Below are positions 38,593 to 39,292 of a DNA stretch of 64,000 bases, one piece after another; position 1 is the stretch's first letter; every line of letters starts with the position of its first letter. Origin of the DNA: Pseudomonas costantinii (GTDB lineage Bacteria > Pseudomonadota > Gammaproteobacteria > Pseudomonadales > Pseudomonadaceae); NCBI RefSeq assembly GCF_001870435.1, contig NZ_MDDR01000037.1, positions 124,001 to 188,000 of the forward strand, in the 5' to 3' direction. Under the pieces are notes generated by a model. The model was not told where the DNA came from. It saw only the letters and a list, made by a program, of their open reading frames with translations, and did not search any database. A program made the position numbers and the translations under genes.

Positions 38593-38640
38593 GTGGGTGC
38601 AGCGATGATCAACTGTGGGAGCTGGTTTGCCTGCGATAGC

Positions 38641-38845
38641 CATAGGTATCTACACAACTTTTAGTCCTGCGCCAGGCCTGTGGCGAGGAAGCTTGCTCGC
38701 GTGGGGGGGCCTCGGGTTGGGCGTTTTCTTTTGGTGGGTTTTTGAGTACATATCCGTTGTTTGGGTACCCAAACAACGGATATGTACTCAGCGCCCCCGC
38801 GACAACCACAGAGTCCAGCCACAAAAAGATGTGTAGATACCTATG
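38641..38845. mobile_element. MITE-like 205-bp non-coding insertion
   Basis: Terminal inverted repeats CATAGGTATCTACACA (38641-38656) and TGTGTAGATACCTATG (38830-38845) are perfect over 16 bp and continue imperfectly to about 22 bp. The element is flanked by a 10-bp direct repeat CTGCGATAGC (38631-38640 and 38846-38855), as a target-site duplication would be. No transposase or other convincing ORF lies inside. The left half contains a REP-like hairpin (GAGGAAGCTTGCTCGC) and the right half the 48-bp palindrome. Confidence 0.75.
38743..38790. repeat. 48-bp perfect palindrome
   Basis: From TGAGTACATATCCGTTGTTT through the centre GGTACC (38764-38769) to the mirror ending TGTACTCA, every base pairs over 24 bp with no spacer. 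It could extrude as a cruciform or form a long RNA hairpin. It lies inside the MITE-like element. Confidence 0.95.
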
Positions 38846-39034
38846 CTGCGATAGCGGTGGATCAGCCGCCAACAGGTTGGCTGGCAGACTGCCATCTCAG
38901 GCAAGGCGGCTCTCACATTTTGATCTCGCCCAGGGCGAAGCCTGGCGCAATCCCGGCATTGGGACTAGCTTCTACCCTGGCGACGGTAAAAGACTGTCGT
39001 GCGGTTTCACCTACTGACTGGACGGAAATCGACC

Positions 39035-39292
39035 ATGAGTATTTTTCAACGAGTAGTGCTGCTGTTAAAGGTGCTGGTGCTGTTGTCGTTGGGGATGTCG
39101 ACAGCCTGGGCACATAACCCGGCGCAGGGCAGCCAGGCGGGCTTTTCGACGGTGCAGACGACACAAGGCAAGGGCCTGCAACTGGCCAAGTCGGAATCCG
39201 AAGCCGGTGATGAGGACCAGGGCGGTTCCAAGGATGACGACGACCAGCAAGCTCCACCTGATGATGACAGCGACAGTGACAGCGATACGTAA
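39035..39292 (+). CDS. small exported acidic protein, unknown function (85 aa)
   Basis: Begins at ATG 39035 with a weak GGA eight bases upstream. The first 26 residues form a clear signal peptide (MSIFQRVVLLLKVLVLLSLG, then STAWA with AxA-type cleavage). The mature 59 residues start HNPAQ and end in an extremely acidic tail with DDDD and repeated DSDSDSDT. No cysteines, membrane anchor or known domain. A predicted disordered periplasmic or secreted protein; the Asp/Ser tail could bind calcium or other cations, which is inference. Stands alone after the repeat insertion and before the dpp terminator. Confidence 0.65.
   Translation: MSIFQRVVLLLKVLVLLSLGMSTAWAHNPAQGSQAGFSTVQTTQGKGLQLAKSESEAGDEDQGGSKDDDDQQAPPDDDSDSDSDT

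Follow-up and report, generated by a model that had tools for sequence, protein, structure and literature searches.

MITEs, insertion sequences (IS) that target REPs, and IS4-type ends are already known separately in the sections of earlier work cited here (PMC1525189, PMC2718517, PMC3116915, PMC2266710, PMC10969869). Target duplications of about 10 bp are given as usual for the IS4 family (PMC2266710). Within that family, the IS50 subgroup is listed at 1350-1550 bp, with the end pattern CW------Y---CA-A--W- in Table 1, and the text of the same paper gives 5'-NT for the ends of IS10 and IS50 (De Palmenaer 2008, PMC2266710). The REP-targeting IS named in the passages cited are ISPsy8, ISPa11, ISPpu9, ISPpu10, ISRm22 and ISRm19 (Tobes & Pareja 2006, PMC1525189).

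Here we analyse a 205-bp element in the window, by which we mean the whole 64-kb stretch of Pseudomonas costantinii DNA under study. A literature search by topic, with ISfinder outside its coverage, returned no account of a MITE family with the ends of this element, and three substrings of the ends were absent from the searched paper texts.

A 205-bp MITE inserted in a REPIN-like repeat

The element is non-coding, has perfect 16-bp inverted ends and lies between two copies of a 10-bp direct duplication (Table 1), as an earlier note on this DNA had read it. With up to three mismatches allowed, the 16-mer end occurs in the window at just its two known sites; shuffled sequences contain a mean of 0.10 occurrences, and none of 100 shuffles contains two or more. 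At 205 bp the element is too short to encode a transposase, and together with its inverted ends, target duplication, multiple copies and empty-site counterpart this identifies it as a MITE.

Table 1. Positions, in the window, of the element and of the repeat that it interrupts.
Feature	Position	Strand	Basis
Left part of REPIN-like host repeat, ending in the left duplication copy	38614..38640	.	Uninterrupted counterparts in relatives
Left copy of 10-bp target duplication, CTGCGATAGC	38631..38640	.	10/10 matching
205-bp MITE, internal-deletion form	38641..38845	.	Ends and matches to longer elements of the same genome
Left terminal inverted repeat, CATAGGTATCTACACA	38641..38656	+	Sequence inspection, window scan
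REP-like stretch within the 205-bp element	38679..38700	+	REP-like pattern scoring
Perfect 48-bp central palindrome (24+24 bp)	38743..38790	.	Junction of two element ends of different origin
Right terminal inverted repeat, exact reverse complement of CATAGGTATCTACACA	38830..38845	-	Sequence inspection, window scan
Right copy of 10-bp target duplication, CTGCGATAGC	38846..38855	.	Direct reading of the letters
Rest of REPIN-like host repeat	38856..38917	.	Uninterrupted counterparts in relatives

Removal of the element with one copy of the duplicate leaves a repeat with inverted, REP-like ends of its own (TGTGGGAGC / GCTCTCACA), as had been proposed, although this repeat measures 89 bp and not the roughly 100 bp first claimed. 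Parts of it have many matches in the P. costantinii genome, and at this locus it begins about 70 bp past the prfC stop codon; plasmid-collection records name this gene peptide chain release factor 3. Two inverted REPs form the ends of a REPIN; the ends of the 205-bp element are instead the inverted copies of CATAGGTATCTACACA.

The 205-bp copy is an internal-deletion form of a longer element. Its bases 1-127 match one end of a 530-bp element of the same genome at 94%, its bases 126-205 match one end of a 272-bp element at 95%, and the two halves join at the perfect 48-bp palindrome. The 205-bp strand folds at -60.1 kcal/mol under DNA parameters (shuffle mean -27.0; z -8.9), a stability that none of 200 shuffles equals. 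No promoter- or terminator-like site was found, and the Rfam matches on the palindrome are microRNA families that score below their cut-offs. We further note that the inner inverted repeat TGAGTACATATCCGTT (window 38743-38790) recurs in many elements, including ones on C16, C20, C41 and C57 of the same genome, and seems to form one arm of another hairpin module within the MITE family, which is larger and reaches about 800 bp.

The joined flanks were used as a query against 398 genomes of the genus, 47 of which match at E <= 1e-20. The host repeat is uninterrupted at the same place in all seven relatives fetched (for example CTGCGATGGC in L254), and the last 100 prfC residues of these relatives are 96-98% identical. 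As the seven were picked for a match across the junction, they prove that the uninterrupted state exists and do not give its frequency. They supply the empty-site counterpart that the earlier note had proposed to look for in related strains, and bear out its reading of a clean insertion scar left by a non-autonomous element nested in a dispersed repeat. One locus (L260) has a different short insert 5' of the insertion site. In a wider look, prfC is present in the stretch in 22 of 23 genomes, and the junction is also spanned, by a shorter match, in four loci besides the seven (L237, L244, L246 and L247). The 16-mer (up to two mismatches) is in none of the 26 loci of this place fetched from these 23 genomes, and the insertion here is thus known from the P. 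costantinii genome alone. Downstream, at window 39035-39292, lies a small frame whose short protein product has a signal-like beginning and a highly acidic tail; in relatives the frame is conserved at the DNA level.

A family of MITEs that targets REPs across Pseudomonas

Further copies, which the earlier note had proposed to seek genome-wide, do exist. The 16-mer (up to one mismatch) occurs 23 times in the P. costantinii genome and never in the reversed-letter control, and eight elements of 176, 205, 251, 272, 530, 854, 903 and 904 bp could be delimited. Seven of the eight have a 10-bp duplication with at least 9/10 matching, and the 251-bp element has 6/10. Within the genus, the exact 16-mer (A or G at position 4) is found in 55 of 398 genomes, that of P. 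costantinii included, the most end-rich of which (G351) has up to 83 ends. The reversed-letter control gives one match in all 398 genomes, so that the 16-mer, almost without background in the genus, is a handy marker for broken REPINs and rearrangements. Elsewhere, the exact 16-mer is found in 5 of 368 other genomes from a class draw.

From the loci of the genus (L001-L092 and L234-L273) we delimited 51 distinct elements, defined by end pairs with at most three mismatches per end and four in all, 60-1100 bp apart. One-ended copies were excluded, and G351, G332 and P. costantinii weigh most in the set; as the ends were chosen by sequence, their conservation among the 51 proves nothing. A 10-bp duplication (at least 9/10 matching) flanks 41 of the 51 elements and a 9-bp duplication flanks two. 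The remaining eight are unscorable: four are decayed (6-8 of 10), three have inverted flanks and one shows no resemblance between its flanks. Flanks that are reverse complements rather than direct repeats (for example CTCATCGCTG ... CAGCGATGAG) are seen at L051, L086, L270, L293, L296, L302 and the right-hand element of L297. Recombination between inverted copies would give such flanks, and the MITEs may thus have driven chromosomal inversions.

A strict REP motif spans the junction in 40 of the 51 elements. Several of the other 11 are REP-like by eye, while L043, L050, L054 and L064 are not. Both this target and the make-up of the interiors go beyond the earlier note. REP-like stretches are also found within 34 of the 51 elements. 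Thirty of the 51 were of a length that could be folded (RNA parameters, ends removed), and 28 of these 30 have z below -3, with a median of -12, the exceptions being L005 (z -2.2) and L043 (z +0.6). Outside the genus, z falls below -3 in 7 of 14 elements; the seven 178-bp copies are not among these, which indicates that a hairpin interior is not a general requirement. On sequence clustering, the interiors of the family are mosaics of common modules, with 42 of the 51 elements joined by common stretches of at least 40 bp and the others falling into groups of 6, 2 and 1. The view that interiors are unrelated between species was rejected on this connection of 42 of the 51. Copies in G351 are 84-98% identical to their nearest full-length partner (21 of 23 have one), and those in G332 85-99% (7 of 7, two at 99%). 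These identities point to mostly past amplification, with perhaps a few younger copies.

Nearly the same ends flank IS4-family transposase genes in other bacteria

At L124 (1344 bp) and L107 (1372 bp) a decayed transposase gene lies between the ends, neither locus having a clear duplication. An alignment of pieces of these two transposases, used as search query, found 127 relatives in named genomes, 80 of which were kept (44 from one Sodalis genome). Both ends (up to two mismatches) are present in 16 of 37 representative transposase loci, one of the 37 standing for Sodalis. In these 16 the ends lie about 1.36-1.46 kb apart (1.36 or 1.73 kb in L167) and enclose a stop-to-stop frame of 429-456 codons; the other loci are broken, are truncated where the contig stops, or match less well at one end. 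Full-length examples come from Thiomicrorhabdus (L161), Methylovulum (L142), Methylobacter (L146), Deefgea (L143), Legionellales (L166), Rhodopirellula (L177) and Sodalis (L176), and the hosts of these IS of about 1.36 kb include methanotrophs, Deefgea, Thiomicrorhabdus, Sodalis and some plasmids. Over 24 bases, the left end of the window element agrees with the left end of the Methylobacter copy at 22/24, and its right end, also at 22/24, with the left end of L228, an IS on a plasmid of Citrobacter.

The DDE and YREK residues occupy invariant columns in 13 IS transposases and were found by motif search in 6. NCBIfam IS4-family models match the transposases with scores below their cut-offs; the top NCBIfam row is a flagellar FlhF model that stays far under its own cut-off, and was set aside as an oddity. 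Pfam DDE_Tnp_1 is above cut-off in two of three. Against solved structures, the transposase profile finds Tn5 transposase as its sole plausible relative (E 4e-9); no other solved IS4-type relative turned up, so this match does not separate IS4 subgroups. By these motif and profile matches, the full-length relatives are classed as IS4-family, Tn5-like insertion sequences, in agreement with the IS4-family guess made from the duplication length. The end pattern of the IS50 subgroup fits them by eye, and their CA start is at odds with 5'-NT.

The transposase also matches in 15 plasmid records, two of them cyanobacterial at merely 24% identity and none from Pseudomonas. The other 13 belong to Arsenophonus (4), Acinetobacter (3), Citrobacter (2), Aeromonas (2), Serratia (1) and Methylotuvimicrobium (1), and are annotated as 'transposase' in 9 records and as 'hypothetical protein' in the four from Arsenophonus. 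Both ends and a 9-bp duplication are found at the plasmid loci of Citrobacter (L228), Aeromonas (L232) and one Acinetobacter (L231), both ends without a duplication in Arsenophonus (L233), one end in the other Acinetobacter (L230), and a poor left end without duplication in Serratia (L229). By annotation, the intact-looking frame of this Serratia copy is flanked by genes for beta-lactamase and for sulfonamide resistance on the IncC plasmid p11663. The decayed IS of L107 has flanks identical to those of the Arsenophonus plasmid copy. The 205-bp element and a 195-bp relative had no match in the plasmid search, and the inner part of a 903-bp relative matched in P. antarctica, its exact ends being absent. 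A phage search with the transposase gave no match. Among viral contigs, 27 stretches contain the 16-mer, mostly in a context of phage genes; L107 with its decayed IS is one of these stretches, and L098 and L101 look like element ends.

Unlike the 10-bp duplications of the Pseudomonas MITEs, those of the IS copies are mostly 9 bp, a difference that was not part of the earlier note. Over 20 rows (19 loci), IS duplications are 9 bp in 11, 10 bp in one and 8 bp in one, with 7 unscorable; the 13 rows of 8-10 bp accord with the roughly 10 bp of the IS4 family. Short elements outside the genus (17 rows) have 9 bp in 10, 10 bp in 4 and 3 unscorable. The 8-9 bp expected of the IS50 subgroup is not what the Pseudomonas MITEs show. 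Target sites outside the genus are often palindromic (CC..GG, by eye), and the IS copies do not lie in REPs. In G659, a genome that also has an (interrupted) transposase gene, these ends bound another family of MITEs, AT-rich and 178 bp long (L122, L127, L130, L133, L135, L139 and L141), mostly with 9-bp duplications outside REPs.

Search for the enzyme in end-bearing Pseudomonas genomes

The earlier note had a transposase elsewhere in the genome mobilise the element. This is not supported: a profile built from 13 transposases finds none at E <= 1e-5 in the P. costantinii genome or in the other 54 end-bearing genomes of the genus. The same profile matches in two of five end-bearing outsiders (G484 and G659, best E below 1e-150), the other three (G694, G713 and G748) having the ends without the enzyme. 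Gaps do not explain the missing enzyme, since 12 of the 55 from the genus are assembled as one contig each. The NF033590 model has no match in 30 genomes of the genus (17 of them end-bearing), its controls being matched in 3 of 14 with none over cut-off. A 91-aa transposase piece finds nothing in 398 genomes of the genus at E <= 1e-8, in a search run without positive control, and a search of fetched Pseudomonas loci for transposase fragments, with positive controls included, reaches no similarity below E 0.06. Distant IS4 transposases occur in 7 of 198 genomes of a family draw (E 4e-9 to 2e-5); they were rejected as parents, as these ends do not occur as a pair at any of the 12 loci fetched.

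Neither ends nor profile reveal an autonomous relative with the same ends in the P. costantinii genome, where the delimited elements (at most 904 bp) contain no gene and copies at contig ends were left unclosed. In four fully listed genomes of the genus, four end pairs lie 1.0-3.6 kb apart (L293-L296). Inside L295 and L296 the frames do not exceed 120 codons. L294, with IS3/IS481-type (rve) transposase genes, and L293, with an IS110-family gene, were rejected as autonomous copies; MITE arms continue on either side in both, which we read as other IS inserted into a MITE. These two loci, both of G309, show several nesting layers of mobile elements. Wider end pairs (L297 and L298) enclose long, ordinary-looking frames. 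The full-length IS with these ends that the earlier note had proposed to look for is seen in other bacteria, with nearly the same ends, and was not found in the P. costantinii genome; no full-length IS of the Tn5-like group was seen in the four fully listed genomes either, and the link between the MITEs and this IS group is thus made through their ends.

Origin of the Pseudomonas elements

The Pseudomonas elements look like orphan MITEs adapted to REP targets. Probably, their ends are those of an unnamed IS4-family, Tn5-like IS group, whose transposase, or one closely related to it, inserted them into REPs with cuts staggered by 10 bp and is no longer found. This transposase would have recognised the MITE ends and put the elements at a fixed REP point, and would since have been lost from the end-bearing Pseudomonas genomes. 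The MITEs would then descend from an IS of the group, and their mobiliser may have come and gone, for example on a plasmid, as a variant adapted to REPs and the 10-bp stagger. In Tn5, two transposase subunits pair the ends, hairpin intermediates free the element, and it is joined to staggered cuts. By analogy, cut-and-paste of the MITEs would follow the same route of paired ends, hairpin intermediates and staggered target cuts; the hairpin interiors might aid end pairing, or merely survive.

Against a lost enzyme of this group stand the IS copies themselves, mostly with 9 bp and outside REPs, and two G332 copies at 99% that may be recent and would fit poorly with a long-lost enzyme. The difference in stagger and target suggests either a variant enzyme or another enzyme that took over the ends. 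A transposase of another or very divergent kind, resident in Pseudomonas and perhaps active to this day, could act in trans without itself having the same ends, reading REPs and cutting 10 bp apart. The 10-bp duplication and REP target unlike the IS group, the 55 genomes without an enzyme of that group and the copies at 98-99% identity would suit such an enzyme. We nevertheless consider it unlikely, because the MITE ends match the IS group at 22/24 bases on each side and the broader NF033590 model finds nothing in 30 genomes of the genus (17 end-bearing), the genome-wide search having used IS4-type models. It is rather improbable, too, that an undescribed REP-reading, trans-acting Pseudomonas transposase not flanked by its own ends took over IS4-type MITEs and inserts mosaic hairpin cassettes at a fixed REP point with a 10-bp stagger.

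The autonomous IS might instead persist in Pseudomonas strains or plasmids that a sample of one genome per species misses, and re-seed the family from there. The group does reside on plasmids of Citrobacter, Aeromonas, Serratia, Acinetobacter, Arsenophonus and Methylotuvimicrobium, but with no Pseudomonas among the 15 plasmid records, none of 55 genomes matched by the profile and none of 398 by the 91-aa piece (no positive control), we regard this as improbable. Movement together with REPINs through a RAYT (HUH) enzyme, the ends being a binding site or a part of the repeat and not transposon ends, would account for the REP targets seen in 40 of the 51 elements and for the REP-like stretches within 34. 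It is made very improbable by the 10-bp direct duplications, by REPINs that are uninterrupted at the same locus in relatives, and by nearly the same ends surrounding DDE transposase frames in other bacteria. Many near-identical repeats and an assembly of 66 contigs with 9.18% estimated contamination could in principle produce such a pattern by chance or as an assembly artefact; given the shuffle and reversed-letter controls and the 12 of 55 end-bearing genomes in single contigs, we attach next to no weight to this. The reading that we prefer, orphan MITEs moved by an enzyme of the Tn5-like group or its close variant, ties scattered intergenic repeats of Pseudomonas to one set of transposon ends, makes REPs the landing site for a second kind of miniature element, and presents MITEs spread over many species for which no transposase is detected. 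It thereby becomes testable whether the enzyme or the ends set the choice of target and the length of the stagger.

Comparison with known systems

Compared with the IS50 (Tn5) subgroup as characterised in the sections cited, the full-length relatives are alike in their DDE and YREK transposase, their length of about 1.36 kb, ends that by eye fit CW------Y---CA-A--W- and mostly 9-bp duplications; the studied ends differ in starting with CA, and the Pseudomonas elements in their 10-bp duplications and lack of a gene (PMC2266710). Like the bacterial MITEs of the account cited, the Pseudomonas elements are short and non-coding, with inverted ends and a target duplication; unlike them, they form a REP-specific family across many species whose matching transposase was not found in the carriers (PMC10969869). 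They share insertion at one REP point with the REP-targeting IS, which, in the passages cited, carry their own transposase and have direct repeats of 3, none, 2 or 6 bp and not 10, the IS4-family ISRm22 having 6 bp as against 10 bp in the Pseudomonas MITEs (PMC1525189).

The host repeat resembles the REPINs of P. fluorescens as described in the parts cited (Bertels & Rainey 2011, PMC3116915; Silby 2009, PMC2718517). On printed size, which is the whole of the comparison, R0 of P. fluorescens equals the 89 bp of the host repeat, and R178 (101 bp) and R200 (320 bp), likewise known by size alone, may overlap inner parts of the elements (PMC2718517, PMC3116915). Unlike REPINs and the R0/R2-type MITE-like repeats in these accounts, the 205-bp element is a guest in such a repeat, with its own ends and its own duplication (PMC3116915, PMC2718517).
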